Source of the DNA: Bacteroidota bacterium
GTDB lineage: Bacteria; Bacteroidota; Bacteroidia; Chitinophagales; BACL12
Length of the DNA stretch: 61,828 bases
Direction: 5' to 3'
Assembly (NCBI GenBank): GCA_029571985.1
Contig: JAKQVC010000239.1
Span: 1 to 61,828, forward strand
The translations under genes were made by a program, and so were the position numbers. The notes under the pieces are model-generated. The model worked only from the letters and a program-made list of their open reading frames with translations, had not been told where the DNA came from and made no database searches. Positions within the stretch are counted from its first letter, which is position 1. Each line of letters begins with the position of its first letter. Shown here piece after piece: positions 40,519 to 56,028 of this stretch.

Positions 40519-42900
40519 ATGAAGAATTTTTCTTCTGCGGCCCTATTGGTGCTTACAATCGGGCTCTTTAACACCCTGAACGCACAAACTCCTGTTATAC
40601 CGGGAGTTTCCTCTTCAACACTTGAATCACTTGGTTTTGACAGCGGTGAAATTGATGCTATCATGAGTACAACGGGTGCTTCAACCTCCATTGAAGCAGC
40701 TGCTTCCATTCAGGATGCTCAACAATCTGCCGTACAACAGGCAAATGATCAGTTGAACAGCTTACCTCCTGCAGTTACAGAAACAGCTCCTCCGGCAGCT
40801 TTACAAGCAGTATTACAGGATGAACCACAAGCAGGTCCGGCAGCACCGGTAGTTTGGGGACAGGATTTTTTCAGAAATGGTTCTGTTGACCTTTTTGATA
40901 AAGTGCCTAACGCCAAGGTGAACGATAATTATATTATTGGCGAAGGCGACCAGCTGACCATTTCAGTTTGGGGTTATGCCTATTATAACTCAAATTTTAC
41001 TGTAAATGACGAAGGCTATATCACGACTGTTGAAGTAGGTCGTATTTACGTTAAAGGCCTTACCTACAGTGCTGCACGTCAATTGTTGCGTCAGCGTTTT
41101 GCATCTGCATTTGACTTGGTAAACAGCAAATTTGATGTTGCTTTAACCTATTCTAAAACCATCAAAGTAAATATTGTTGGTGAGGTGGTTAATCCAGGTT
41201 CTTATAACGTTTCATCGTTAAACACGGCCTTCAATGCCTTAGTTGCAGCAGGTGGTGTTACAGATATCGGTTCAGTTCGTAACATTCAGGTTAAACGCAA
41301 TGGTAAAATCATTAAGACATTAGATGTTTATCAATTCTTAATGAATCCGGGTTCTACTGACGACACCTACCTGGAGGCTAACGATTACATCATTGTAAAC
41401 GGTATTGGTCGCGTGGTTGATGTAATGGGAGAAATTAACCGCCCAATGAAATATGAGTTGGTGAAAGGTGAAAATTTAAATGAATTAATTACGTATGCCG
41501 GTGGGTTGAAATCAACAGCCTACAAGCGCAATGTAACTATATATCGTTATTACCAAAACGAGAATATTGTTTTAGATTTTAATCTGGATAGTCTGGAACG
41601 TGAACGCATTAACTTCAATTTACTTGACGGTGATAAAATTACATTTGCCCGTATTCCTGAGGTTGTTGAAAATGTTGTTACCATTCAGGGTTCATGCCGC
41701 TTTCCTGGTAATTATCAGTTATCAGAAGGTATGCGTATCTACGACCTGATTACCAAAGCAAAAGGTTTAAACTATGATGCCTACACTGATCGTGCGTATT
41801 TAATCAGGAAGAATGATAAACTGAATGATATTTATGTGCCGTTTGATTTAGGTGAAGTATTAGAAAATCCGTCATCACCATTCAATTTCGAATTGACAAA
41901 ATTTGATGTGATTGATATCTTCAGCAAAGAGGAATTCCGTGAAACATTTACTGTAAGTGTTCAGGGTTCTGTTAAAACGCCCGGTTCATTTCCATACTAT
42001 GAGAAAATGACCCTGAAAGATTTATTGTATTACGCTGGTGGTTTACGTGTGGAAGCTGCAAACAGCCGCATTGAAATTTCACGTATTGTAAACTTTAATG
42101 AAGCAAGCAACGATAATGAACCAACACGTGTGGTTATACAAAGTGTAACCATTGGTAAACTGCTTGAGTTGGATGATGCTGCAAACACCTTCCAATTACA
42201 ACCATATGATCAGGTATTTGTGCGCAATACACCTGAATTTGAATATCAGAAAAACGTTACCCTTTTAGGTGAGGTGAAATATCCAGGAACCTATACTTTA
42301 ACCAGCCGGACTGAAACACTTGCTGATTTAATTGAACGCGCAGGCGGTCTTACCCAGTGGGCATATGCCGAGGGTGCTACGATGAATCGTTCAGATGTTA
42401 CCTCTACTTTAGTGTTTCTGCACAAAGCGTTGGAAAATCCGGAGTCTAAATATAACTATGTTTTACGCGAGGGTGATGTTGTAACTGTACCAAAACAAGG
42501 CGACCTGGTTGCGCTTAAAGGTGAAATTCGTTATCCATTTATTGGTGATCCGGGCAACGTAATCGTGCCTTTCGAAAAAGGTCGTTCTGCACGTCATTAC
42601 ATTCGTAAGTATGGAAAGAATTTCGGTGATAATGCCAAGCGCAGTGAAACCTATATTATTGAACCGAACGGATATGTGCGCAGAACGCATAATTTCCTGT
42701 TCATCCATTTTTATCCAAGAGTAAAAGTAAAAGGTTGTCAGGTAGTAGTGCCTGCTAAGCCAGAAGAAAAGGAAACACCGGATGCACCAACCGCTCCAAG
42801 CGAACCATTCGACTGGAATACTTTCATGAGTACGCTGAGTGCAGGTATCCTGAGCTTCGCAACAATTTATGTATTAGTGGCACGAGTGCCGGCAGAATAA
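40519..42900 (+). CDS. SLBB-domain polysaccharide export protein (Wza-like)
   Basis: The protein has 793 residues; the ATG at 40519 gives a signal peptide ending FNTLNAQ. An N-terminal low-complexity part rich in Ala/Gln/Ser (about 60-115) precedes the Poly_export domain (NYIIGEGDQLTISVWGYAYY). At least five SLBB-like repeats follow, each with a VxGEVxxPGxY-type phrase: NIVGEVVNPGSYNVS, DVMGEINRPMKYEL, IQGSCRFPGNYQLS, VQGSVKTPGSFPYY, LLGEVKYPGTYTLT. A C-terminal hydrophobic helix (NTFMSTLSAGILSFATIYVL) could be the outer-membrane helix as in Wza. No lipobox is seen. It should form the outer channel for the polysaccharide made by this locus. Confidence 0.9.
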   Translation: MKNFSSAALLVLTIGLFNTLNAQTPVIPGVSSSTLESLGFDSGEIDAIMSTTGASTSIEAAASIQDAQQSAVQQANDQLNSLPPAVTETAPPAALQAVLQDEPQAGPAAPVVWGQDFFRNGSVDLFDKVPNAKVNDNYIIGEGDQLTISVWGYAYYNSNFTVNDEGYITTVEVGRIYVKGLTYSAARQLLRQRFASAFDLVNSKFDVALTYSKTIKVNIVGEVVNPGSYNVSSLNTAFNALVAAGGVTDIGSVRNIQVKRNGKIIKTLDVYQFLMNPGSTDDTYLEANDYIIVNGIGRVVDVMGEINRPMKYELVKGENLNELITYAGGLKSTAYKRNVTIYRYYQNENIVLDFNLDSLERERINFNLLDGDKITFARIPEVVENVVTIQGSCRFPGNYQLSEGMRIYDLITKAKGLNYDAYTDRAYLIRKNDKLNDIYVPFDLGEVLENPSSPFNFELTKFDVIDIFSKEEFRETFTVSVQGSVKTPGSFPYYEKMTLKDLLYYAGGLRVEAANSRIEISRIVNFNEASNDNEPTRVVIQSVTIGKLLELDDAANTFQLQPYDQVFVRNTPEFEYQKNVTLLGEVKYPGTYTLTSRTETLADLIERAGGLTQWAYAEGATMNRSDVTSTLVFLHKALENPESKYNYVLREGDVVTVPKQGDLVALKGEIRYPFIGDPGNVIVPFEKGRSARHYIRKYGKNFGDNAKRSETYIIEPNGYVRRTHNFLFIHFYPRVKVKGCQVVVPAKPEEKETPDAPTAPSEPFDWNTFMSTLSAGILSFATIYVLVARVPAE

Positions 42901-42928
42901 TTTAATACAAATCGGTACCACAAACGCT

Positions 42929-44074
42929 ATGCAATACGATCGTCCGTATAATGATGAAATCAACATTGGTGACCTGTTTACCAAGTTTGGTGAATACCGG
43001 AGATATCTGGTAAAAAAATGGTGGGTTATCCTGCTTTGTGCATTGGCTTTAGCATTAGGTTTACGCTTTTATGCTGTTTGGAAAAAAGAGCATTATGTAG
43101 CGCATGCCGACTTTGCCGTTAAAGGAACAGAAGGTTCATCAACCTCCTCTTTAGCGTCTTTGGCCAGTTCATTTGGTATTGGTATCACAACAGGTACTGA
43201 GTTTACAAATGAGTTATTTTTGGGTATCCTTCAATCGCGCACGCTGGTTAAGGAGGCATTGATGCAGAAATACACCATGTCTGTTAAAAAAGGTGTTGCA
43301 CCACGTGAAGATTATTTAGCCAATTTTTATGTGGAAATGTATCCACGCTGGGCTAAGAAGAAAAAGGTGAAAGACTTCAAGCTGGAGCATGGATCACTAG
43401 ATTCCATTACGCGTTATGAAGATAGTTGTTTAACCGTTATTTATGACGAGATTGTGGATGCTGATATCACCACTGAATTCAGTGATGAGTTGGGTATGAA
43501 TCAAATGGAAGTGTCATCGCTGAGTTATGATTTCTCTTACGCTTTAGCGAATTATCTGGCATACGCAGGCTCTGAGTATTATATCAATAATCAGGTTGTA
43601 AATGAGCAACGAACTGTTGATTTGATGCAAGGTAAGGCTGACTCACTTCGGGCTCTGCTGGACGCGAAGGAAGAAATGCTGGCACGTATTCAGGATGGAA
43701 GCGCTTTTCAGGTGAAATTTACAGGCTACCTCAATCAAAATAGATTAATCAGAGAAATTGGCCTGATTACCACTGAGTATTCTACCACTTTTGCCCAGTT
43801 GCAGCTTGCCTTATTTGACTTACAAAATAAGGCACCACTGGTTGATATGATTGACCGGCCAAAATATGCTACTATCAAAGAAAAGGAGCAAACAACCATG
43901 ATGATGATTATCGGTTTCATTTTAGGAATCATATTCACATCGATTGGCCTCAGCTTCAGAAAATATATTCGGGATAGTGTTGAAGAAGCCCGTCAGAAGC
44001 AATTGGTGATTGAAAAATATAATAAGGAGCAGGAAAATCAATCGCTCATAAATCCGGATAGCAACAAAATCTGA
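42929..44074 (+). CDS. Wzz-type chain-length determinant protein (no kinase domain)
   Basis: The protein has 381 residues. An N-terminal INIGDLFTKFGEYRRYLVKK leads into TM1 (about 31-52), a long periplasmic part with coiled-coil character (about 205-270), and TM2 near residue 320-345 (MMMIIGFILGIIFTSIGLSF). This is the Wzz/PCP layout. The tyrosine kinase domain of Wzc-type proteins is missing, so the protein is of the separate or kinase-free kind. It sets chain length and connects Wzx/Wzy to the export protein. It lies 28 bases after the SLBB gene. Confidence 0.87.
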   Translation: MQYDRPYNDEINIGDLFTKFGEYRRYLVKKWWVILLCALALALGLRFYAVWKKEHYVAHADFAVKGTEGSSTSSLASLASSFGIGITTGTEFTNELFLGILQSRTLVKEALMQKYTMSVKKGVAPREDYLANFYVEMYPRWAKKKKVKDFKLEHGSLDSITRYEDSCLTVIYDEIVDADITTEFSDELGMNQMEVSSLSYDFSYALANYLAYAGSEYYINNQVVNEQRTVDLMQGKADSLRALLDAKEEMLARIQDGSAFQVKFTGYLNQNRLIREIGLITTEYSTTFAQLQLALFDLQNKAPLVDMIDRPKYATIKEKEQTTMMMIIGFILGIIFTSIGLSFRKYIRDSVEEARQKQLVIEKYNKEQENQSLINPDSNKI

Positions 44075-44104
44075 AACTAAACACCGCTTTTGTGAGTTAG
44101 CCTT

Positions 44105-45604
44105 ATGATTTTCAATTCGTTACATTTCCTGATTTTTCTACCTGTAGCGATATTCTGCTATTTCTCAATTAATTATAAGTGGCGCTGGTTATTCTTATTG
44201 TTTTCCAGCTACTACTTTTACATGAGCTGGAAGCCGGAATATGCTTTCCTGATTGTATTTTCTACTACTGTTGATTACATCACAGCAAATGCAATGGCAA
44301 AACAATCAACCCGAAAGGGTCGAAGGCCATTCATGCTGATTAGTTTGTTCTCTAACCTGGGCTTATTATTTAGTTTTAAATACTTCAATTTCTTTAATGA
44401 TTCGGCACGTGCTGTGTTCGACTCATTTGACATTTTTTATAATGTTCCGGAGTTTAATTTATTTCTGCCGGTTGGTATTTCGTTTTATACTTTTCAGGCT
44501 TTGTCCTATACCATCGATGTGTACCGCGGTGAGGTGAAGGCAGAAAAACACTTTGGTTACTTTGCTCTGTTCATTAGCTACTGGCCACAATTGGTTGCCG
44601 GTCCGATTGAAAGACCGGGTGACTTACAGCCCCAGTTAAAAAGTAATTTTGATTTTGATTACGAACGCACTAAAAAAGGACTTATACGTATTTTATACGG
44701 GTTCTTTAAAAAGTCGGTAATTGCCGATCGCCTGGGCATTTTTGTTCAGGCCGTTTATGGTCAGAATGATGGTATGGGCGGATGGACTTATCCGCAATTT
44801 GAACACGGTGGCTGGCCGGTGGTAATAGCTACCTGGTTTTTTGCCATACAAGTGTATTGCGATTTTAGCGGGTATTGCGATATCGCCATTGGAAGTGCAA
44901 AAATAATGGGCCATAACCTGACAGATAATTTCCGAACGCCATATTTCTCGAAGTCTATTCGCGAATTCTGGGAGCGATGGCATATCACACTTACAGTCTG
45001 GGTGCGCGATTACCTCTATATTCCATTGGGCGGAAGCCGAGTCTCGTTCGGGCGTATGCTCTTTAATAACTGGTTTACATTAACGGTAATGGGCTTCTGG
45101 CATGGAGCCAATTGGACCTATGTCATGTTTGGATTTATTCATGGTATGTTCATTGTAATTAGCCGAGTCAGAGATAAATACATGCCTAAGCTGGTGCTCA
45201 AAAAGATGTTGCCGAATATGGTCTGGCTGACCAATATCCTGCTTATGTTTTGGATATTTAACCTTACCTGTATTCCGGATATTTTCTTTAGAAGCAACAC
45301 CGTAGGCGACGCTTGGGTGACTATCGGAAATATGTTTAAGCAGAGTACTATGCATGAATTTATGTACAATAGTACTTTAAGAGGGGCTGTGCCGAGTATC
45401 GTTGAGTTTTGGGTAAGTGTTGTATTTATCGCGATATTGTTATTCATTGATTATAATCTGTACATCCGCAAGAGCGCAACAATTGAAGATCAGGTTGCTA
45501 AGCGTCATTGGGTGTTGAGATGGGGTTATTATATTGTTTTTCTGGTTTTAGTGGCCTGTTTTGCGGTTACAACCAGTTCTGTATTCATCTATTTTGCCTT
45601 CTAA
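44105..45604 (+). CDS. MBOAT-family O-acyltransferase (AlgI-like)
   Basis: The protein has 499 residues with about ten transmembrane helices. Family motifs are present: LPVGISFYTFQALSYTIDVY and RGEVKAEKHFGYFALFISYW, RLGIFVQAVYG, VYCDFSGYCDIAIGSAKIMG, FWERWHITLTVWVRDYLYIPLG and the catalytic His in MGFWHGANWTYVMFG. AlgI-like proteins move an acyl group, normally acetyl, across the membrane for transfer to polysaccharide. The neighbour at 45607 (SGNH-like) is the expected partner. Acceptor is presumed to be the polysaccharide of this locus. Confidence 0.9.
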   Translation: MIFNSLHFLIFLPVAIFCYFSINYKWRWLFLLFSSYYFYMSWKPEYAFLIVFSTTVDYITANAMAKQSTRKGRRPFMLISLFSNLGLLFSFKYFNFFNDSARAVFDSFDIFYNVPEFNLFLPVGISFYTFQALSYTIDVYRGEVKAEKHFGYFALFISYWPQLVAGPIERPGDLQPQLKSNFDFDYERTKKGLIRILYGFFKKSVIADRLGIFVQAVYGQNDGMGGWTYPQFEHGGWPVVIATWFFAIQVYCDFSGYCDIAIGSAKIMGHNLTDNFRTPYFSKSIREFWERWHITLTVWVRDYLYIPLGGSRVSFGRMLFNNWFTLTVMGFWHGANWTYVMFGFIHGMFIVISRVRDKYMPKLVLKKMLPNMVWLTNILLMFWIFNLTCIPDIFFRSNTVGDAWVTIGNMFKQSTMHEFMYNSTLRGAVPSIVEFWVSVVFIAILLFIDYNLYIRKSATIEDQVAKRHWVLRWGYYIVFLVLVACFAVTTSSVFIYFAF

Positions 45605-45606
45605 CC

Positions 45607-46734
45607 ATGGTGAAAAAATTATTCATACGACTTGCCCTGTTAATTGTCATTGTGTATGGCATTTGTCAGGTTATTCTTATGTCTATGCCATTCAGTTGGG
45701 GTAATACGCGTTTGAATACCAAGTATGAAGCCTATGTGCAAAAACACGAAAGCTATAACACCCTATTAATAGGGGCCAGTACAACCTATCGCCATATTGA
45801 TCCTACAAGGTTTGATTCTATTGTCAACAGCAGGTATCCTGAATTAGGTGTGCATGCATTCAATTTCGGAATTCCTGCAAACAGAACGCCGCAAACCATC
45901 TATATGCTGGATAATATTTTAGATGGATATGGTGATGAAATAAAGTATGTAGTTATTGATTTATCTGAATTAACTAAAATGGGTGCCGATAATCTCCACA
46001 AGAAGGAGATGTTATATTGGTATACATGGGATAATATCGGTGGGGTAATGCGCGCCTCAAATGAATCTGAAAAAGGCATGAATAAATATGGTGTTCCTTT
46101 TCTGCATGCTTTTTCCTTTGCAGAAAAATCATTCCTGGTTGGTATGGGAACCACCGTTGTTCAACAGCATGCCGGTTTAAATAATGAACCGCTATCAGTT
46201 GGCCCAGATGGAAATGGGTTCTATTCATTGGATCAGGAAATGCATGACGACCCTGCAGGAGATCTCGCCATCAGGTATAACGATTTGCGCACACCAGACA
46301 CCATTGCCTTCCGCACACAGCGATGCCAGGCTTTATACGATAAGTATAAGGATCAGGGTAAAAACCTGAACAAGGAAATGGAAGCGCAATTAGAAGATAT
46401 TATTAAAACATGTGATAAACGTGGGATTCATGTAGTTATTATGTTGAGCCAGCGTTTAGGTGATCGGTATGAATATTTAATTCCCCTGTTTAATCGCCTG
46501 CCGGAAGAAAATAGAATTGGTTTTCAAAATCCATCAGCGTATCCTGTATTAAACGAACGAGAACACTTGTTTGATCTTGCCCACTTGAACGCTGCCGGAG
46601 CCGAAATATTTACAGGCATTTTTGCAGATGAATGGCTTAAGCGCATGGAAATGCAAAAAGTAATTATGCCTAAACAGTCTGCACCTGCTGATACTACTAA
46701 CCTGAATATTCAAACGAATGGTGATGCATTATGA
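45607..46734 (+). CDS. SGNH-like exported protein paired with the MBOAT (AlgX/DltD-type partner)
   Basis: The protein has 375 residues; the start ATG at 45607 is 2 bases after the MBOAT stop. It has one N-terminal membrane segment (about residues 5-22), then an extracytoplasmic domain with LLIGASTTYRHIDP (GDS-like block I) and, near the end, LFDLAHLNAAGAEIF (DxxHLN, with Asp and His of the catalytic dyad). These features fit an SGNH-type acyltransferase or esterase working with the MBOAT in polysaccharide O-acylation. Ends with ATGA overlap into the flippase gene. Only part of the family motifs can be read, so the exact enzyme is uncertain. Confidence 0.75.
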   Translation: MVKKLFIRLALLIVIVYGICQVILMSMPFSWGNTRLNTKYEAYVQKHESYNTLLIGASTTYRHIDPTRFDSIVNSRYPELGVHAFNFGIPANRTPQTIYMLDNILDGYGDEIKYVVIDLSELTKMGADNLHKKEMLYWYTWDNIGGVMRASNESEKGMNKYGVPFLHAFSFAEKSFLVGMGTTVVQQHAGLNNEPLSVGPDGNGFYSLDQEMHDDPAGDLAIRYNDLRTPDTIAFRTQRCQALYDKYKDQGKNLNKEMEAQLEDIIKTCDKRGIHVVIMLSQRLGDRYEYLIPLFNRLPEENRIGFQNPSAYPVLNEREHLFDLAHLNAAGAEIFTGIFADEWLKRMEMQKVIMPKQSAPADTTNLNIQTNGDAL

Positions 46735-48218
46735 TAAAAAAGATCACCAAAAAGTTCAGGCGAAAATTTAAGGATCGCGATTTTAGTGAAATTCTAAAAA
46801 AAGGGTTTACAGGTACCATCATTAGTTTGGTTGGGCGATTCTCAGGTTATCTGTTATTGATGGTCATTGGCTGGATTTATGGCCAGGAAGCACTTGGCGT
46901 GTATACCGTAGGATTAAGTTTACTGAGTATCGTTGGTATTCTAGGCCGTTTTGGTGTAGATATGGCCATGTCTCGATTTGTAGCACAATATGGCGGCGCG
47001 GGTCGATGGGATTTAATTCGGGGTTCTTATAGAACTGCTTTTACTATTGTATTCGTATTAGGCTTATTGCTATCAACAGCGACCTATTTCCTGGTACCCT
47101 ATTTTATTGATGATTTTTTTGACACCGCCTCTCCGAATTACGACAGGTATGCTCTTTTCATGCAGCTGTTTGCTGTCAGTATTTTGTTTTATGTACTTGG
47201 TGGATTGAGTGAAGAATGCATCAAAGGATTAAAGAAAACAAAACAATATAATTGGATAAGCCAGGTAGTAAATCAGGTGGCTGCTATTGTTTTTCTTGTG
47301 ATTTTTGGCTTGTTTTCAAAGGATGAATTGTGGGTTAATTTAAGTTATTGTTTAGGTGTCTTCGTTGCCTTCGCTTTTGCTCAATATTATTGGCTTCTGT
47401 ATTTGCGAAAACCTGAACTTGGTGGAACAGAATTTGCTCAGCCAAAAAAGCCTAAGAAACCGGGTGCAGAAAAGAAATTCGAGGTTAATCTCGATAAGCC
47501 ACTCACTACCAGTGAAATGTTGCGCATCAGTGCACCGATGATGTCGGCGAAGTATCTAACCATGATTTATACCTGGTTGGATATTTTGATTTTAGCCCAT
47601 TATGTTGAGGAGGCAAAGGTGGCCATTTATCGCGTAGCTACCCGATTAACTTCTCTTGCTACAATCCCTTTAATATCCATTAATGCGATTGCCGGACCAA
47701 AATTCGCGGAAGCATACGGCAATAACGACACGAAAGGATTGCACTATAGTGTACGTCAGGCAACGCGTATGATTTTTTGGAGTTGTGTACCCATCCTTTT
47801 TATTTTTCTGGTTTTTCCGAAGTGGGGTTTGTATACATTCGGCAAGGGATATACTTCGCATGAAGCAGTTACCGTATTTGTCATTGTGACATTAGGACAG
47901 GTAGCAAACGTCCTTACCGGGCCGGTTACTGTGTTGTTAAATATGACGGGCAGACAAAAAGTAACCATGTATTATGCACTTGCAACTGTCGTAATTGATA
48001 TTAGCTTGAACCTTATCCTGATACCTCTTTATGGTTTGATTGGCGCTGCCATCGCAACGGCAGTTTCCCGAACGGTTTTAAATTTGGGATGTGCTTTGCA
48101 AATTTACTTTAGCATGGGTGTCAGCACAATCTATAATCCATTTACGGATTTGATGGGTTTGATAAATAAAAAGAATAAGAACGTGCAAAAAAAACAGGAG
48201 GTTGACCATGGCGACTAA
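46731..48218 (+). CDS. Wzx-like oligosaccharide flippase
   Basis: The protein has 495 residues and around 12-14 predicted transmembrane helices. The opening KKGFTGTIISLVGRFSGYLL and the later LTTSEMLRISAPMMSAKYLT and PVTVLLNMTGRQKVTMYYA fit the polysaccharide-transport (MOP) family. A charged insertion (about 223-255, lysine- and proline-rich, AQPKKPKKPGAEKKFE) lies in a cytoplasmic loop. It should flip undecaprenyl-linked repeat units. It overlaps the SGNH-like gene (ATGA) and the first sulfotransferase gene (11 bases). Confidence 0.88.
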   Translation: MIKKITKKFRRKFKDRDFSEILKKGFTGTIISLVGRFSGYLLLMVIGWIYGQEALGVYTVGLSLLSIVGILGRFGVDMAMSRFVAQYGGAGRWDLIRGSYRTAFTIVFVLGLLLSTATYFLVPYFIDDFFDTASPNYDRYALFMQLFAVSILFYVLGGLSEECIKGLKKTKQYNWISQVVNQVAAIVFLVIFGLFSKDELWVNLSYCLGVFVAFAFAQYYWLLYLRKPELGGTEFAQPKKPKKPGAEKKFEVNLDKPLTTSEMLRISAPMMSAKYLTMIYTWLDILILAHYVEEAKVAIYRVATRLTSLATIPLISINAIAGPKFAEAYGNNDTKGLHYSVRQATRMIFWSCVPILFIFLVFPKWGLYTFGKGYTSHEAVTVFVIVTLGQVANVLTGPVTVLLNMTGRQKVTMYYALATVVIDISLNLILIPLYGLIGAAIATAVSRTVLNLGCALQIYFSMGVSTIYNPFTDLMGLINKKNKNVQKKQEVDHGD

Positions 48219-49116
48219 TTGGCCAAATTTCTTGATTGTTGGAACTGCACGAGCAGGCACAACCAGTTTGCATGAGTACCTCGGTGGTCATAAGGATATT
48301 TTTATGCCCTTACAAAAGGAGCCATGTTTTTTCTCCTTTTATGGAAAGCATCCGGAGTATAAAGACAGCAGGCACCGCTATCTAACTGATATTCCGGGAT
48401 ACCAGGAATTATTTGCCGGACATGATAAAAAAATGAGTGGCGAATCGTCTACACCGTATTTATATTTTTATCAGCAGTCTATCGCCAATATATTAGCCTT
48501 AGTGCCCAATGCTGCGGAAGAGATGCGCATCATCATTGTGTTGCGAGATCCTGCCGAAAGGGCATATTCGCAATACATGCATAACCGCCGCGATTTACGA
48601 GAACCTTTAACTTTTGAAGAGGCCATTGATGCTGAACAGCAAAGATTACAGGATAATTGGCATTTTGATTATGCGTATGTAGATAAAGGATTTTATTACC
48701 GTCAGGTTAAGGCTTACCTGGATAATTTTAAGCATGTCAAAATTTTATTTTACGATACGCTTGAAAAAAATCCGGATAAACTGCTGGATGATGTGTATGA
48801 TTTCCTCGGTGTTGAACGCGCCGAATCGGGTAAAATGATCAAACGCAATCAGAGCGGAGAAATGAAAGTGAAATGGTTTAAGCAAATCATCACCACCCGA
48901 AAAAATCCGGTCCTCAACTTTTTTAGAAAGTTAATGAGTCGCGATACAAAGAAAAAACTCCGTAACTGGATTAAGGATAAGTTACTTCGGTATAACCTGA
49001 AGAAAACAGAAATGCTGCCGGCCACGCGGAAAAAATTAATTGCCCTGTATCAGGACGATATTAAATCATTACAAACTTTAGTAGACAAAGATTTAAGCGA
49101 CTGGATGCGTATATGA
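48208..49116 (+). CDS. Sulfotransferase 1 of polysaccharide locus (variant PAPS loop: Arg)
   Basis: The protein has 302 residues; the start is the ATG at 48208, with an alternative TTG at 48202. The 5'-phosphosulfate loop reads FLIVGTARAGTTSLHEYL, where the usual catalytic/PAPS-contact Lys of the KxGTT loop is Arg (R15). The 3'-phosphate site IIIVLRDPAERAYSQYMHNR is intact. The C-terminus LQTLVDKDLSDWMRI matches the ending of the other sulfotransferases in this locus. It is predicted to transfer sulfate from PAPS to a sugar of the polysaccharide, in the cytoplasm before flipping. Overlaps the flippase gene by 11 bases and the next gene by ATGA. Confidence 0.85.
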   Translation: MATNWPNFLIVGTARAGTTSLHEYLGGHKDIFMPLQKEPCFFSFYGKHPEYKDSRHRYLTDIPGYQELFAGHDKKMSGESSTPYLYFYQQSIANILALVPNAAEEMRIIIVLRDPAERAYSQYMHNRRDLREPLTFEEAIDAEQQRLQDNWHFDYAYVDKGFYYRQVKAYLDNFKHVKILFYDTLEKNPDKLLDDVYDFLGVERAESGKMIKRNQSGEMKVKWFKQIITTRKNPVLNFFRKLMSRDTKKKLRNWIKDKLLRYNLKKTEMLPATRKKLIALYQDDIKSLQTLVDKDLSDWMRI

Positions 49117-49997
49117 GTAAAGGGCAGATATATCAAAATTTTGTTTGCATCGGCGCACAAAAAGCCGGCACAACCACGCTGGCCGATATCCTGAGTGCGC
49201 ATCCGGACATGTGTATCCCGCCCATTAAGGAAACCAAGTTTTTTTTATTTGATGACGACTATCAAAAAGGTAAATCTTTTTATGATGGTTACTTTTCGAA
49301 TTATTCCGGTCAGCAGGCAGTAGGGGAGTTTGATCCCGATTATATGCTGTTCCCGTTTACGGCTCAGCGATTGAAGGATACACTTGGCGCTGAACTGAAA
49401 ATAATTGTTGTTTTACGTAATCCTGCCGACAGAGCCTATTCGCATTATTTAATGACAAAGAGGAAGGGTTTGGAGCCTCACCCGTTTATTAAGGCGCTGG
49501 ACGAGGAAAGAAACAGACAACAGGATATAAAAACCAGAAAGATATATGCCTACAAGGAAAGAGGCATGTATGGCAGACAAATTGAAGCCTATTTACAGGT
49601 TTTTGAAAAAAATAATTTTCTCTTTTTGGAGTTCGAGCGGGACTTTCTACGTAACCGGGAGGAAACCATACGTAACGTACAGGCCTTTCTTGGCGTTCCA
49701 TACCATCAATTGGATGTTCTGGTGCACAGCAATGAAGCGGGCGAGCCCATCCATGATACGGTGAATGAGTTAGTTAGAAAGCCTAATTTTGCAAAGCGAA
49801 TCCTGAAATTCCTGCTGCCGGTCAAATCCTTGCGTAAAGCCATGCGAAAGAAAGTTATCGCCGGCAATATGCAAAAGGCCAGTGTGGCTAAACTGGATTC
49901 AGAAACCAGACAAATCCTCATTCGTGAGGTATTTGCTGAAGATATTTTATTAACGGAAAAATTAACTGGTCTCGACTTGTCGGGATGGTACAAATGA
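49113..49997 (+). CDS. Sulfotransferase 2 of polysaccharide locus
   Basis: The protein has 294 residues. The PAPS loop NFVCIGAQKAGTTTLADIL has Lys at residue 17, and the 3'-phosphate site KIIVVLRNPADRAYSHYLM is intact. AVGEFDPDYMLFP follows the usual place of a substrate-facing acidic motif. It ends LTEKLTGLDLSGWYK, like the other members. Overlap with sulfotransferase 1 is ATGA (4 bases), so the two are translationally coupled. It lies 1 base before the Wzy-like gene. Predicted to sulfate a sugar of the repeat unit. Confidence 0.9.
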   Translation: MSKGQIYQNFVCIGAQKAGTTTLADILSAHPDMCIPPIKETKFFLFDDDYQKGKSFYDGYFSNYSGQQAVGEFDPDYMLFPFTAQRLKDTLGAELKIIVVLRNPADRAYSHYLMTKRKGLEPHPFIKALDEERNRQQDIKTRKIYAYKERGMYGRQIEAYLQVFEKNNFLFLEFERDFLRNREETIRNVQAFLGVPYHQLDVLVHSNEAGEPIHDTVNELVRKPNFAKRILKFLLPVKSLRKAMRKKVIAGNMQKASVAKLDSETRQILIREVFAEDILLTEKLTGLDLSGWYK

Positions 49998-49998
49998 T

Positions 49999-51333
49999 AT
50001 GGGTATTTTAACCTACGAAAAAGGAATATACAAGGAGCCGATGTCCGTGTTTGGAAAAACACTGATATTGGTGGTGTTTATTCTGTTTACCACCCGTATC
50101 CTGACCAGAACACCACTGGTTGACTACTACATGCCATTTGAAATCATGTGGTACACCTTTATTATCAGCTTTACCTTCATCTATGCACTGTATCTCTTTC
50201 TTGTACGCAAAACAGTGGATGAGATACATTATTACTATGTGCTGATCATCATCATGCCCATATGGGCCGGTGTGATGGCGAAACTATCAGAAGATCAGGC
50301 AATCATGGTGGGTTTGAGTTCGCAACGACATTGGTATGGGATTAGCGGAATTTTCGTTTTGGCTTACCTGCTGCAAACCCGGTTCTTTACCATGGGCGAT
50401 TTATTCCGAGCTATGAAATGGCTGGGTTGGGGAACAATGGTGTATTTCATTCTGTGCTATATGTTCCTTGATCCAAAACAATATCTGGATTATTCATTTG
50501 TGGGTTATAGTGATATCAAAGGTGGTTACCGTTTTAAATTCGGTATAGACTTTATTGCCTTTCTTTCTGTGTATTATACCGTTAGATATATTAAACAGAA
50601 AGAATCATCTGCCATTTGGCTATCCGGCATCAATTTATCTTATTTATTCTTCCTCCATCAGGGAAGATCTGTAATGATTTCTGTTGTAGCTACTTTGTTT
50701 GTTTTTTACATGTTCGAAGTAAACTGGCAGCGTGCTGTCCGCATTTTTGCAACGATTGGGGCTGTTATATTAGTGATTATGGGTGTTATGTATGCCATCA
50801 TTCCAGATCGGGTAAATGACTATATCTACCAATATACCAGCCTAGCAACCGTAGTGTTTACAGGAAATGTGTCTGGTGAAAGCTCGGTTGATGCACGTCT
50901 GGAAGAAATTGCTATTCTCTTATTGTATTTGCAGGATTATCCAATTGGATGGTGGATTGGAATTGGAAAGATGGGGTCAGAATCTGCAGTTACAGGAGAC
51001 CATACCATTCATACGGTGCCTCCCGGAGATATAGGCATTTTAGGTAGTATCATGACCTATGGAATTTTAGGTTCTTTATTGATTTATCTCCAGTTCTTAA
51101 TTCCCTATCGCAGCCTTAAGTTTATACGTCGCTATAAAGATGAGCCTTTCAAAATGGCGGCTACATACTTTTTGATATTTTGTTTCCTCTCTTCCCTGGC
51201 TAAGGGTTATTTATTCATGCAACCCGGTTCAACAGCCATTTTCATTTTGGTGATTTATTCGTATAAGTTGTTAGAAGTGCAAATGGATAAGCAGGGATTG
51301 CCGGAAACATTAACATTGAAGAATTCATTTTAA
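49999..51333 (+). CDS. Wzy-like polysaccharide polymerase / O-antigen ligase-type membrane protein
   Basis: The protein has 444 residues and about ten to eleven transmembrane helices, with a large extracytoplasmic loop near residues 275-350 that contains ESSVDARLEEIAILLLYLQD and HTIHTVPPGDIGILGS. The topology and position next to Wzx and Wzz point to a Wzy-type polymerase, although such proteins have little sequence conservation. It would join flipped repeat units in the periplasm. An O-antigen ligase-type role is the alternative. Starts 1 base after sulfotransferase 2. Confidence 0.75.
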   Translation: MGILTYEKGIYKEPMSVFGKTLILVVFILFTTRILTRTPLVDYYMPFEIMWYTFIISFTFIYALYLFLVRKTVDEIHYYYVLIIIMPIWAGVMAKLSEDQAIMVGLSSQRHWYGISGIFVLAYLLQTRFFTMGDLFRAMKWLGWGTMVYFILCYMFLDPKQYLDYSFVGYSDIKGGYRFKFGIDFIAFLSVYYTVRYIKQKESSAIWLSGINLSYLFFLHQGRSVMISVVATLFVFYMFEVNWQRAVRIFATIGAVILVIMGVMYAIIPDRVNDYIYQYTSLATVVFTGNVSGESSVDARLEEIAILLLYLQDYPIGWWIGIGKMGSESAVTGDHTIHTVPPGDIGILGSIMTYGILGSLLIYLQFLIPYRSLKFIRRYKDEPFKMAATYFLIFCFLSSLAKGYLFMQPGSTAIFILVIYSYKLLEVQMDKQGLPETLTLKNSF

Positions 51334-51342
51334 CTTTATCAT

Positions 51343-52338
51343 ATGGAACTCATATCAGCTGATAAACGCATATTAGTTATTGGTTCGTTAAACGCCAATC
51401 CAGCCGACAGAGCAATTGACAGAAAGGATATTCGCAGTATGCAGTTAATCGATGACCAGCAGCGTATATCTCCTGTTGCGTTTTTTAATACCTGGGGCGA
51501 GCTTGGGATGAGTAGCATGTGCTGGCAGGAACAAGATCCTTATATCTTGTATATTGCCTCCAGCTCTGAAGTATTCAGATTTGATCTGCATGCAAAATCC
51601 TATACGCAATTAGATATTCCGAATCTTACAGATATTCATGAAATTAGTATGATTGGAGATCATGTGTGGATTTCAAATACCAAACATGACGAAATTGTCA
51701 GCTATAATATCATCGAACAAAAAATTGGTCAACGGATTAACCTGACCGACTTTAAATCCAACACACCGGAAGAAGGCGAAGAGGAACAGGATGTGGAAGT
51801 GGTAGATAAATTTCATTGCAATCTCGTTTTCGAGGGGTATGAAGGTGATATATATATTCTGGTGCACCATACTTCCGGCCGTCAGTTAATGAAGCGGATC
51901 GCTCAAAAATTTATTAAAAGCCAAGGAAACGGAGGTGTGGTGGATATTACCGCCAGAAAACGCTATCCGCTAAATTTTAAAGCTCCACATAGTGTAAGAC
52001 GTATCAATAATCAATATTGGGTTTTTGATAGCGGACACTTTGAGTTGAAAGTATTTGACAAAAACTGGAATTTTATTCGCACGCTCGATACAAAAGGTTT
52101 TGGCCGTGGAGGAGATATGGATACTGCGCGCGGTATTTATTATGGCGGCGTTAGCGAAACACGGAAACGTTACCTCGGATTATTTCCGGGTGGAGAGGCC
52201 GTGCCTAATATGGTACAGGTATTCCGCACGGGCGATTACACATTGTTAGGTTCCATTAAAATACCAAATATTGAGCAAATTAATAACGTGTATTGCCTCG
52301 ATAAGCAGGTTGCAGATGCGTTGATGCAATTTTCGTAA
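51343..52338 (+). CDS. Beta-propeller-like protein of unknown role in polysaccharide locus
   Basis: The protein has 331 residues with no signal peptide or membrane segment, so it is probably cytoplasmic. I do not recognise a named family with certainty. The body shows repeated beta-strand segments with ending phrases such as VFRFDLHAKSYTQLDIPN, VWISNTKHDEIVSYNI, YWVFDSGHFELKVFDKNW and GIYYGGVSETRKRYLG, which resemble blades of a propeller; a DUF4915-like fold is possible. It sits between the Wzy-like gene and sulfotransferase 3 (stop and start overlap by one base, TAATG). It may bind a glycan or regulate its enzymes, but this is a guess. Confidence 0.6.
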   Translation: MELISADKRILVIGSLNANPADRAIDRKDIRSMQLIDDQQRISPVAFFNTWGELGMSSMCWQEQDPYILYIASSSEVFRFDLHAKSYTQLDIPNLTDIHEISMIGDHVWISNTKHDEIVSYNIIEQKIGQRINLTDFKSNTPEEGEEEQDVEVVDKFHCNLVFEGYEGDIYILVHHTSGRQLMKRIAQKFIKSQGNGGVVDITARKRYPLNFKAPHSVRRINNQYWVFDSGHFELKVFDKNWNFIRTLDTKGFGRGGDMDTARGIYYGGVSETRKRYLGLFPGGEAVPNMVQVFRTGDYTLLGSIKIPNIEQINNVYCLDKQVADALMQFS

Positions 52339-53297
52339 TGAGTAATCAGCCATACATATTACCCAATTTTATTGTTGTTGGCGCAAATAAAGGTGGTACC
52401 ACGTCTATTTATCACTACCTGAAGCAACATCCCCAGGTTTATCTTTCGCCAATTAAAGAGCCGCATTATTTCTCTACCGATATAGATGTAAATCAGTTTA
52501 AAAAAGAGTTCGCTCATAATAAACTGCAGGATATTGAAAAATATGTAAATGGGGAGATGGAGCAGGAATATCATGCGGCATTCGTCAGAGATTTTAATCA
52601 GTATCAAAAACTATTCAGGAAGGCCGGGGGATTTAAAGCCATAGGCGAACTTAGTACTTCCTATTTGTATTCTAAAAATGCTGCACAGGAAATTCATGCA
52701 GTAGTTCCTGATTGTAAGATTATCATTTGTTTGCGCAATCCGATTGAACGGGCTTATTCGCACTATCGGATGAACTTGTGGACCGGCAATAGCAATCAGT
52801 TCGATTTTTACAAAGCGCTTGTCGAGGATTATCAGCATACACCTAAGGTTTGGGGTAATGCGCATCTGTATACCGAAATAGGCATGTATTACGAACAGGT
52901 AAAGCGCTACATCGACACATTTGGGCGCGAGCATGTGCTGATTATCTTTAGTGAGGATTTAAAAAAGCGTACAGCGGAAATTATCCGTGAGGTGTATGCC
53001 TTTATTGGAGTGGATGATCAGTTTATTCCGGACACCTCTACACAATACAATGAGGTATATACGCCCAAGTATAAAAATTTAACCTGGTTTTTAAATAAAA
53101 CAGGTATACGCCCGCTGATGAAGAAAATTAGCCCTTCTTTTATTAAGAAGGCTGTTATCCGTACTTTTTATAAAAGTAAAGCGGATAAAGGTGAAATGTC
53201 GAAGGAGGCTAAACAGTTTTTGCTCGATAAGCTTTCGGATGATGTACGTCAATTGGGCACATTATTAAATAAAGATTTGTCAGGTTGGTTAAAATAA
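52338..53297 (+). CDS. Sulfotransferase 3 of polysaccharide locus
   Basis: The protein has 319 residues. The PAPS loop FIVVGANKGGTTSIYHYL has Lys at residue 18. The 3'-phosphate site KIIICLRNPIERAYSHYRM is intact. AIGELSTSYLYSKNAAQEIH and GMYYEQVKRYIDTFG are shared closely with sulfotransferase 5 (AIGEVSNSYLY, GLYYEQVKRYTDLFP), as is the ending LGTLLNKDLSGWLK, so the two are likely paralogues. Predicted to sulfate a sugar of the repeat unit with PAPS. The start overlaps the propeller-like gene's stop by one base. It lies 5 bases before the glycosyltransferase gene. Confidence 0.92.
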   Translation: MSNQPYILPNFIVVGANKGGTTSIYHYLKQHPQVYLSPIKEPHYFSTDIDVNQFKKEFAHNKLQDIEKYVNGEMEQEYHAAFVRDFNQYQKLFRKAGGFKAIGELSTSYLYSKNAAQEIHAVVPDCKIIICLRNPIERAYSHYRMNLWTGNSNQFDFYKALVEDYQHTPKVWGNAHLYTEIGMYYEQVKRYIDTFGREHVLIIFSEDLKKRTAEIIREVYAFIGVDDQFIPDTSTQYNEVYTPKYKNLTWFLNKTGIRPLMKKISPSFIKKAVIRTFYKSKADKGEMSKEAKQFLLDKLSDDVRQLGTLLNKDLSGWLK

Positions 53298-53302
53298 GTT
53301 GA

Positions 53303-54343
53303 ATGACACCGAAAGTTTGTATCGTATTGGTGAACTACAAAACCTGGCAAGACACGGTTGAATGTATGGAGAGTATTCTCCGTTCATCTTACCCCCACTA
53401 TCAGATTGTAGTAGTAGAAAATGGCAGTGGTGATAACAGTTGGGAGATGATGCTCAAATGGGCACGAGGCGAATATCAGCATGCAATAGCAACCAATAAT
53501 CCGTTATTTACTTTATCGCATCCGCCAGTGGCGAAACCTTTGCTCTATTTCAGGGCAACTACAGATGATTCTGGTCATTTGCGTTTAGGACCCTTAGATG
53601 GTATTATGCCCATTCTCTTTATTAAAAGTGAAAAAAATCTGGGTTTTGCAGGTGGTAATAATGTGGGTATGCGGTATGCTTTGCAAAGTGATTTTGATTA
53701 TGTGTGGTTACTTAATAACGATACCGTTATTGATGAACACGCCATACGTGCCTTAGTGCAGTATGCAGAGGTGCAAAAAGAAAAAGGAAATACAATTGGT
53801 ATTGTAGGCAGCAAATTGCGTGTGTATCATCAGCCTGATAAAATGCAGGGCATCGGTGCTATCTTTAATAAATACAGTGGGAAGAGTAAAATTATTGGTG
53901 CTCAGGAAGTAGACAAAGGTCAGTATGACGACAAGGAAATTGTGTGTAATTATGTTATTGGTGCCGCCATGTTTGTGAACCGGCCTTTTTTAGTGGATGT
54001 GGGTTTGATGAGTGAGGAGTATTTCCTCTATAACGAAGAAAATGATTGGAGTGCGCGGGCAAAGCTGAAAGATTGGGGCGTTGGTGTGGCTACCAAAAGT
54101 ATTGTTTATCATAAGCAGGGAGCATCAACCGGCAATAGCCCTAAAAAGAGTAAATGGCAAATTAAGGCTCTGCATTATAAATACAGAGGTAAAATCAAAT
54201 TATATAAAAAGTACTATCGCTTGCAATTACCTTTTTTATACTGGCATTTATTTACACGAAGCCTTAAGTATATGGCTAAGGGTAATTTCAGTGAAGCTAA
54301 GGTTATCTATCAGGCAATGTTTAATACAAAATTTGAATCATGA
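53303..54343 (+). CDS. Family 2 glycosyltransferase (WbbL-like)
   Basis: The protein has 346 residues. GT2 features: VCIVLVNYKTWQDTVECMES (nucleotide-binding start), IVVVENGSGDNS, KNLGFAGGNNVGMRYAL, YVWLLNNDTVIDE (the DxD-type acidic pair as NND) and YFLYNEENDWSARAKLKDWG with WSAR. It resembles rhamnosyltransferase-type GT2 enzymes. Between VENGSGDN and NLGFAGG there are about 65 residues where about 20 are usual, an insertion. It is the only glycosyltransferase in the locus. Overlaps the next gene by ATGA (54340). Confidence 0.9.
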   Translation: MTPKVCIVLVNYKTWQDTVECMESILRSSYPHYQIVVVENGSGDNSWEMMLKWARGEYQHAIATNNPLFTLSHPPVAKPLLYFRATTDDSGHLRLGPLDGIMPILFIKSEKNLGFAGGNNVGMRYALQSDFDYVWLLNNDTVIDEHAIRALVQYAEVQKEKGNTIGIVGSKLRVYHQPDKMQGIGAIFNKYSGKSKIIGAQEVDKGQYDDKEIVCNYVIGAAMFVNRPFLVDVGLMSEEYFLYNEENDWSARAKLKDWGVGVATKSIVYHKQGASTGNSPKKSKWQIKALHYKYRGKIKLYKKYYRLQLPFLYWHLFTRSLKYMAKGNFSEAKVIYQAMFNTKFES

Positions 54344-55071
54344 TTATCAGTCATAAACATCGATATGTATTTGTAGAGCTACCTCAAACTGCATCCAGTG
54401 CGATAGCTAAGGAACTTAAGGCAAATTACGATGGCCATGAGATACTCTTTAAGCATGCGTTGTACAGCACAGATTTTCTGAAGCAGGCAACGGAGGAGGA
54501 AAAGAAATATACCCGTGTAAGTGGCTTGCGCAATCCGATGGATATCTGTGTGAGTAATTATTTCAAGTTTAAAACAGACCATGAGAACAGATACTCAAAT
54601 CCACGTTTGATGAAGCATGGTTTCCTGCGCAAATACATCATGCGATGGTGGAATGTGAAGCAGTATAAATCCATTGTGGAACGCGGCGAAAACTTTGAAG
54701 GCTTTTTCATGCGCGCTTACACCATGCCTTATGCCAGCTGGAGTATTATTGAGCATAAACGCATGGATTATATCATCCGCTTCGAAAACCTGCAGTCTGA
54801 TTTTGCCTGGGCACTTGAAACGATAGGTGTAGAAAAGGTAAGGGATATTCCGGTGGCCAATAAAACTGCTGAAAAAACCAAAACTTTCTGGGAATACTAC
54901 GAAACAGATAAGGCAAAACGCCGCGCTAAATATATTTTTGGTCCCTATATGAAACGCTGGGGATATGCTTTCCCTCCTGAATGGGATTATATCAAAACAC
55001 CATGGTATGCATTCCCTTTGTATAATTGTATGAATGTTGCCCGTATCATTTTCTGGAAGTTTTTACGTTGA
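54340..55071 (+). CDS. Divergent sulfotransferase-like protein 4 (PAPS loop Lys replaced by Gln)
   Basis: The protein has 243 residues, shorter than the other sulfotransferases here. The N-terminus YVFVELPQTASSAIAKEL follows the Sulfotransfer_2 pattern VFxxxPKTAxxSI, but the key Lys is Gln (Q16). A second likely PAPS site is VSGLRNPMDICVSNYFKFK. Residues 140-150 YIIRFENLQSDF match the family's downstream segment. Residues 180-243 are rich in Tyr/Trp and end with a weakly hydrophobic stretch. It may be a catalytically changed sulfotransferase or a binding or helper protein. It overlaps the glycosyltransferase gene by ATGA. Confidence 0.65.
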   Translation: MIISHKHRYVFVELPQTASSAIAKELKANYDGHEILFKHALYSTDFLKQATEEEKKYTRVSGLRNPMDICVSNYFKFKTDHENRYSNPRLMKHGFLRKYIMRWWNVKQYKSIVERGENFEGFFMRAYTMPYASWSIIEHKRMDYIIRFENLQSDFAWALETIGVEKVRDIPVANKTAEKTKTFWEYYETDKAKRRAKYIFGPYMKRWGYAFPPEWDYIKTPWYAFPLYNCMNVARIIFWKFLR

Positions 55072-55080
55072 TCTATTCTG

Positions 55081-56028
55081 ATGTCTGTTAAGCCCACATT
55101 CCTGATCGTTGGCGCTGTTAAAGCAGGTACAACTTCTATTCACGAATATCTGCAAATGCATCCGGAGGTATATATGTCGCCTGTAAAGGAGACGAATTAC
55201 TTCAGCGATGCGGATATGTTGTTTGATCATTTTAATGTGGATTACAAGCAGGACATCAATGTGAACCTCGACAAATATTTGTCAGGGCCGATGGATACTA
55301 AAATTCATATTGCCCATGTGCGCACAGCTGCGCAATATGATGCTTTATTTAAGAATGTGACCAACCAGAAAGCTATAGGGGAAGTGAGCAATTCGTATTT
55401 ATACTGCCCGTCAACCGCACAGAAAATTAAGGAGGCGTTGCCGGATGTTCAGATTGTGATGATATTGCGTAACCCGATTGAGCGACTGTATTCTCAATTT
55501 CTCATGAATCTGAAGTTGGGTAAAATTGCTGAACGTGATTTGTTAAAGGAAATTGCAGCAGATCAGGCTAAATCCGTAAAAGGGTGGGGTGTGAGTCATT
55601 TATATCTGGAGGTTGGCTTGTACTATGAGCAGGTAAAACGTTACACAGATTTATTCCCTGGGCATAAAATAAAAATATTATTCTACGACGATTATAAGCA
55701 ACAGCCTAAACAGGCAATGCAGGAATTGTTTGCTTTTTTGCATGTGAACCCTGCCTTCGAACCCGATATGTCGCAACGATATAATGAAGCAGGTATGCCG
55801 CGATTTGGAAAGTTAAATTACTGGCTTACACAAATAGGTGTGTATGGCCTTGTGAAACGCCTGTTCCCTGCTGATATTAAAGAGCGATTAAAATCGGTCA
55901 TCTACACACGGAGTAATATTCCAAGTATTACACCGCAAGAAAAGGCGTGGTTGATTGATTATTATAGATCCGATGTGCAACAATTATCGACCCTGTTGAA
56001 TAAAGATTTAAGTCACTGGTTAAAGTGA
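55081..56028 (+). CDS. Sulfotransferase 5 of polysaccharide locus
   Basis: The protein has 315 residues. The PAPS loop FLIVGAVKAGTTSIHEYL has Lys at residue 14 and the 3'-phosphate site QIVMILRNPIERLYSQFLM is intact. It resembles sulfotransferase 3 in several blocks (GLYYEQVKRYTDLFP, SNSYLYC, LSTLLNKDLSHWLK). It is the last gene of the locus and runs 9 bases into the end of the convergent ClC gene; I see no terminator between them. Predicted to sulfate the polysaccharide repeat unit. Confidence 0.92.
   Translation: MSVKPTFLIVGAVKAGTTSIHEYLQMHPEVYMSPVKETNYFSDADMLFDHFNVDYKQDINVNLDKYLSGPMDTKIHIAHVRTAAQYDALFKNVTNQKAIGEVSNSYLYCPSTAQKIKEALPDVQIVMILRNPIERLYSQFLMNLKLGKIAERDLLKEIAADQAKSVKGWGVSHLYLEVGLYYEQVKRYTDLFPGHKIKILFYDDYKQQPKQAMQELFAFLHVNPAFEPDMSQRYNEAGMPRFGKLNYWLTQIGVYGLVKRLFPADIKERLKSVIYTRSNIPSITPQEKAWLIDYYRSDVQQLSTLLNKDLSHWLK

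Follow-up and report, generated by a model that had tools for sequence, protein, structure and literature searches.

The window analysed here, a stretch of 61,828 nucleotides, makes up the whole of contig C280 in a Chitinophagales genome of 4.0 Mb that is assembled in 282 contigs and is 97% complete. Positions 40519-56028 hold a run of thirteen genes, all on the + strand and with no more than about 30 bases between neighbours, in the order OPX, PCP, MBOAT, SGNH, Wzx, ST1, ST2, Wzy, DUF4915-like, ST3, GT2, ST4 and ST5 (Table 1). A preliminary description of this DNA had named most of these genes, and every one was found where it had been placed and on the one strand; the starts chosen there at 40519 and 48208 are in-frame ATGs lying a few codons within the longest open reading frames. 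Its SLBB export, MBOAT, Wzx-like and GT2 assignments are borne out by Pfam scores above cut-off. The Wzz-like, Wzy-like and SGNH-like names also fit, with profile scores below cut-off for the first two (Wzz, 24.3 against 25.5 bits; Wzy_C, 24.9 against 31.7 bits) and with motifs in place of any match in the Pfam search for the third. The PCP has two TM-like segments close to its ends. The Wzy-like protein is multi-TM, and its position and conservation fit a Wzy polymerase. In NCBIfam the MBOAT protein matches a DltB-like model, at a score below the cut-off of that model.

Table 1. Genes of the run and the evidence for their assignment
Feature	Position	Strand	Evidence
OPX/Wza-type outer-membrane polysaccharide export protein, Poly_export and several SLBB domains	40519..42900	+	PF10531 E 2e-49, PF22461, PF02563 E 2.6e-21; clearly above cut-off
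Wzz-like polysaccharide co-polymerase (PCP), without kinase domain	42929..44074	+	PF02706 E 4e-5, below cut-off; hydropathy
MBOAT O-acyltransferase	44105..45604	+	PF03062 E 4e-23, above cut-off
SGNH-like membrane-anchored MBOAT partner	45607..46734	+	GxS and DxxH-type motifs conserved; N-terminal TM-like segment
Wzx-type flippase	46731..48218	+	PF01554 (MatE) E 1e-26, PF01943 (Polysacc_synt) E 1e-16, both above cut-off
Sulfotransferase ST1	48208..49116	+	PF00685 E 1.7e-15, PF13469 E 3e-14; motifs intact
Sulfotransferase ST2	49113..49997	+	PF00685 E 4e-16; clade common to second family of order (tree)
Wzy-like polymerase	49999..51333	+	PF04932 E 2e-5, below cut-off; kept in all six family genomes
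DUF4915-like cytoplasmic beta-propeller protein	51343..52338	+	PF16261 E 2.6e-7, below cut-off; AlphaFold pLDDT 79; Foldseek matches are beta-propellers
Sulfotransferase ST3	52338..53297	+	PF00685 E 1.3e-16; PDB 3rnl E 2.6e-51
GT2 glycosyltransferase, only one in run	53303..54343	+	PF00535 E 6e-15
ST4, predicted sulfotransferase fold, PF03567-related, Gln for P-loop Lys	54340..55071	+	Homologues and AlphaFold model
Sulfotransferase ST5, 42% identity to ST3	55081..56028	+	PF00685 E 7e-14

Sulfotransferases of the run

Four of the encoded proteins, ST1, ST2, ST3 and ST5, are above the curated cut-offs for PF00685/PF13469 in a Pfam profile search, and when they are aligned the P-loop GTT, KExxxF and RxPxxRxxS residues are invariant. 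By family profile and motifs, they are clear members of the PAPS-dependent sulfotransferase family. In a comparison with PDB entries, ST3 was nearest to a solved bacterial sulfotransferase (3rnl) and then to the heparan sulfate 3-O- and N-sulfotransferases. Hydropathy revealed no TM-like segments in the sulfotransferases, so that sulfation is expected to take place in the cytoplasm. Mutual identity among the four is 26-42%, and those of the host family form separate, supported clades in a tree, with ST2 grouping with the ST2 of a second family and ST5 with a third family and other Bacteroidota. Judged from this tree the clades are old, and a recent tandem duplication was rejected on the basis of their age and of the low identity. 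Compared with a congener, the dN of the sulfotransferases is 0.11-0.25; dS is saturated for nearly all genes in this comparison, and low dN is used here alone, with no dN/dS ratios. That the sulfotransferases have been kept as distinct genes argues for different acceptor positions.

Five proteins with sulfotransferase-like PAPS loops had been counted initially. Pfam and motifs uphold this for the genes starting at 48208, 49113, 52338 and 55081, whereas the product of the gene at 54340, ST4, is linked to sulfotransferases through its homologues and a structural model. ST4 itself has no Pfam match at E 0.1 and none to PF03567 at E 1, and five of the 11 members of its family match PF03567 (best E 4e-11). 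Its AlphaFold model (pLDDT 83) aligns to PAPS-sulfotransferases in all of the best 50 matches listed; among these, 2-O- and 6-O-heparan sulfate sulfotransferases come first and are followed by other sulfotransferases only. The best alignment is to heparan sulfate 2-O-sulfotransferase (2-OST; VIA-align Z 7.8, 172 residues, 3.8 A), and a Foldseek search with the model gave a best E of 0.035 and no match below E 0.001. The P-loop lysine (PKT) is Gln in ST4 and its orthologues and Leu in a paralogue on contig C243, and within the group it occurs only in more distant members, for example L046 and L036. ST4 is thus predicted to be a sulfotransferase-fold protein and a putative sulfotransferase, the activity of which is uncertain because the P-loop lysine is replaced by Gln. 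Members of the ST4 group (window 54340-55071; L020:2557-3282) have an invariant KH pair downstream of the altered P-loop. A relative with 45% identity to ST4 is encoded by the gammaproteobacterium Thiocapsa marina (L058:10001-10735), with an export gene on the same contig, and a scan of viral contigs with ST4 found no relative.

Loss of the P-loop lysine in the ST4 orthologues (Gln) and the C243 paralogues (Leu) bears on a somewhat unlikely alternative, that only one or two of the sulfotransferases act on the polymer, the others being redundant, alternative or inactive, and that the product is lightly sulfated. In one of two sulfotransferase mutants of synechan biosynthesis, neither bloom formation nor EPS accumulation changed substantially (PMC8205485), and some loci homologous to the one described here manage with 0-2 sulfotransferases. 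Light sulfation is harder to reconcile with ST1, ST2, ST3 and ST5, which keep all motifs, form separate clades across genera and change slowly.

Conservation of the locus and related genes on other contigs

All 13 genes are syntenic in the congener Chitinophagales bacterium SSF59 (G043), where they also lie between metS and CLC and encode proteins with 71-87% amino-acid identity. The thirteen-gene run, being fully syntenic in this congener, is by this comparison not a chance arrangement. Contamination or a chimeric contig was rejected, since the locus lies between metS and CLC/rpsP-rimM-trmD and this arrangement is kept in relatives. The five-sulfotransferase module was found again in two other genera. 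ST1 to ST5 are present in ES-bin-175 (G056), in which the contig ends at ST1; in UBA3022 (G030) the run is divided over two contigs; and in RI_103 (G014) the locus is reduced, keeping ST3 and ST5, and the same contig also has a C243-type sulfotransferase and GT4. Co_bin.20 (G067) was also among the relatives compared. The DUF4915-like beta-propeller gene (51343-52338) is retained in the five-sulfotransferase loci of three genera.

Across the order, a Wzy homologue occurs in 33 of 398 genomes, which belong to three families. Within regions of up to 20 kb around it, there are 1-7 sulfotransferases in the second family (six or seven in six genomes) and 0-1 in the third, counts that come from home-made profiles, mostly on metagenome-assembled genomes, and that are lower bounds, some of the regions stopping at a contig end. 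An order-wide sulfotransferase census scored only the best candidates per genome and was left out of these cluster counts. The preliminary description regarded the density of sulfotransferases as unusual. This holds against the few characterised clusters found (synechan has two), but the homologous loci of the second family indicate that high sulfotransferase density is a feature of the lineage and is not unique to this genome. The third-family Wzy loci (L095-L105), several of which have an MBOAT gene and which have 0-1 sulfotransferase, offer a natural comparison for the unsulfated state. Within 7 kb, a Parafilimonas MAG (L060:5171-12099) carries about six genes of sulfotransferase-like proteins, of which two are ST4-type.

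The window has no initiating transferase, Wzc kinase or PAPS synthesis gene, as had been noted, and the initiating and PAPS genes lie elsewhere in the genome. A search for cysD/cysN/cysC and WcaJ-type genes, suggested at the outset, found both. The first form a cysN-cysD-cysC set on contig C164 that includes the PAPS kinase. Four initiating transferases (Bac_transf) are present, of which that on C282 scores above the cut-off for WcaJ (TIGR03023, 467 against 411 bits). This initiator gene is preceded by four heptose-type genes in one operon and followed by a Wzi-like gene. The best NCBIfam matches of the four are HddA, GmhA, HddC and GmhB, all at scores below the equivalog cut-offs (for example, HddA 440 against 600 and GmhA 205.1 against 209.45). 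On C243, genes for a GT4, a PF13469 sulfotransferase and an ST4 paralogue stand in a row. The run and C243 have together about seven sulfotransferase-like genes against two glycosyltransferases and the initiator, compared with five against one in the run alone. Three more sulfotransferase genes lie outside polysaccharide loci, on contigs C256, C129 and C51 (L004, L007 and L008 of G000).

Contigs C280, C243 and C282 are not joined by the assembly, and we infer that they belong together because relatives carry these pieces jointly. For example, one contig (L080) has Wzx-ST3-Wzy-ST5 together with a C243-type sulfotransferase and GT4; L095 has Wzx-Wzy-ST5-GT4-GmhA-initiator-Wzi, with MBOAT; L045 and L046 have initiator-Wzi-MBOAT-heptose genes; and L040 has heptose genes, the initiator and a C243-type operon together. 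In other Bacteroidota MAGs, one locus brings together OPX, Wzx and Wzy with the initiator, genes like ST1, ST4 and ST5, and a C243-type gene.

PAPS synthesis is necessary for sulfation and not specific to it. A PAPS kinase is present in 98 of 120 genomes of the order and was rejected as a specific marker, and a role of PAPS in sulfation alone is not supported, since a CysH-like reductase gene is present (162.7 against a cut-off of 165.1 bits). CysQ is above cut-off on C166, where a single frame of 566 aa joins it to RmlD, next to rmlC and rmlB (L085:5058-6755, - strand). Many Chitinophagales genomes have rmlD and cysQ either fused or side by side, a linkage that may couple the synthesis of rhamnose to the removal of PAP and may point to sulfated rhamnose. 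In at least five second-family loci (G114, G002, G037, G050 and G136), cysQ directly adjoins the MBOAT gene.

Predicted product and comparison with known systems

We consider a sulfated, O-acylated surface polysaccharide, made by the Wzx/Wzy route with PAPS-dependent, multi-site, cytoplasmic sulfation of a short lipid-linked repeat unit, to be the likely product of the locus. A sulfated, O-acylated Wzx/Wzy polysaccharide had been proposed from the window alone, and the homology, active-site motifs, complete PAPS pathway and initiator support it, with the sulfate ester as a prediction. In the proposed route, the WcaJ-type enzyme would start the repeat unit on undecaprenyl phosphate, the GT2 of the locus and the C243 GT4 are the best candidates to extend it, and a GDP-heptose-type sugar is a plausible component. 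While the unit is still in the cytoplasm, soluble ST1, ST2, ST3 and ST5 would place sulfates from PAPS at different positions, probably joined by ST4 and the two C243 sulfotransferase-like proteins; CysN-CysD-CysC would make the PAPS and CysQ would clear PAP. Wzx would then flip the unit and Wzy polymerise it, the PCP and SLBB protein would set chain length and export the polymer, and the MBOAT/SGNH pair would acylate it outside the cytoplasm. We infer the substrate, order of steps, number of sulfates and product from the gene content, motifs, conservation and linkage in relatives that were observed.

If the Wzy-like protein were instead a ligase, the glycan would be attached to lipid A or surface proteins, giving a sulfated O-antigen or protein-linked glycan and not a free polysaccharide or capsule. 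Its sole Pfam match, to Wzy_C/O-antigen ligase, is weak, and the small number of glycosyltransferases points to a glycan that is short; an SLBB export protein and PCP in the same operon and a Wzi-like gene beside the initiator nevertheless fit long-polymer export, and we find the ligase role quite improbable. Acceptors of PF00685 enzymes are of many kinds, and the genome has sulfotransferases outside the locus (C256, C129, C51), but it is highly improbable that those of the run modify a lipid, peptide or small molecule and stand there by chance, given how repeatedly sulfotransferases are interleaved with Wzx, Wzy, GT2 and MBOAT in three families of the order and in other Bacteroidota.

A sulfated polysaccharide made by the Wzx/Wzy route would make Chitinophagales, a group not known for heavily sulfated polysaccharides, a likely producer of one. 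Outside cyanobacteria, sulfated polysaccharides are said to be rare among bacteria (PMC8205485), and no sulfotransferase turned up in the Bacteroidetes genomes of one mat survey (PMC9723792). A search of the open-access literature gave no description of a comparable locus in Chitinophagales. Wzx/Wzy clusters with sulfotransferases are already known; what looks new is a conserved Bacteroidota locus in which sulfotransferases outnumber glycosyltransferases. In granular sludge, sulfated glycoconjugates are common, their pathways are not well known, and few matches with reference sulfotransferases have been obtained (PMC10483923). A conserved, recognisable Chitinophagales cluster provides named genes to seek in such communities, and it is possible that these bacteria have a role in granular-sludge sulfation. 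The related enzymes, which probably differ in specificity, are candidates for regioselective sulfation. We also speculate, while regarding it as unlikely, that this lineage makes a hypersulfated, heptose-containing polysaccharide with a unit of about three sugars, and that as many as seven dedicated sulfotransferases in the cytoplasm each add a sulfate of their own to the lipid-linked unit. Such a polymer would be a bacterial counterpart of heparin- or fucoidan-like sulfation density and a possible source of granular-sludge sulfated polymers of unknown producer.

Among known systems is the xss cluster for synechan in Synechocystis PCC 6803, in which two sulfotransferases stand beside eight glycosyltransferases (PMC8205485). 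Like the Chitinophagales locus, it is a Wzx/Wzy/PCP cluster with sulfotransferases and with part of the machinery encoded at another site of the genome (for synechan the OPX gene, in Chitinophagales the initiator). The sulfotransferase to glycosyltransferase ratio differs, 2:8 there against 5:1 here, or about 7:3 with the linked loci and initiator; in addition, the phylum is different, and the Chitinophagales locus has MBOAT/SGNH genes. The capsule of Vibrio sp. KMM 8419, for which three sulfotransferase genes are spread across an 80-gene region (PMC11641403), and that of Cobetia marina KMM 1449 (PMC11766843) resemble the Chitinophagales system in that sulfotransferases go together with PAPS and sugar genes, and their structures are solved. 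The Vibrio polymer also carries an O-acyl group. Unlike the predicted Chitinophagales polysaccharide, these capsules are exported by an ABC transporter, and the PAPS genes are inside the cluster. Pontiella sulfatireligans F21 has a putative sulfated GAG cluster, likewise a polysaccharide cluster with a sulfotransferase, and a sulfated exopolymer was measured (PMC7356697). It differs in having one sulfotransferase in the cluster and in being a marine member of the Verrucomicrobiota. The animal heparan sulfate sulfotransferases (3-OST, NDST, 2-OST and 6-OST) are sequence kin of ST3 and fold kin of ST4, and there too several enzymes act at different positions of one polymer. The animal enzymes are Golgi enzymes with the polymer as acceptor, whereas those described here are predicted to be soluble, cytoplasmic and probably directed at lipid-linked units.
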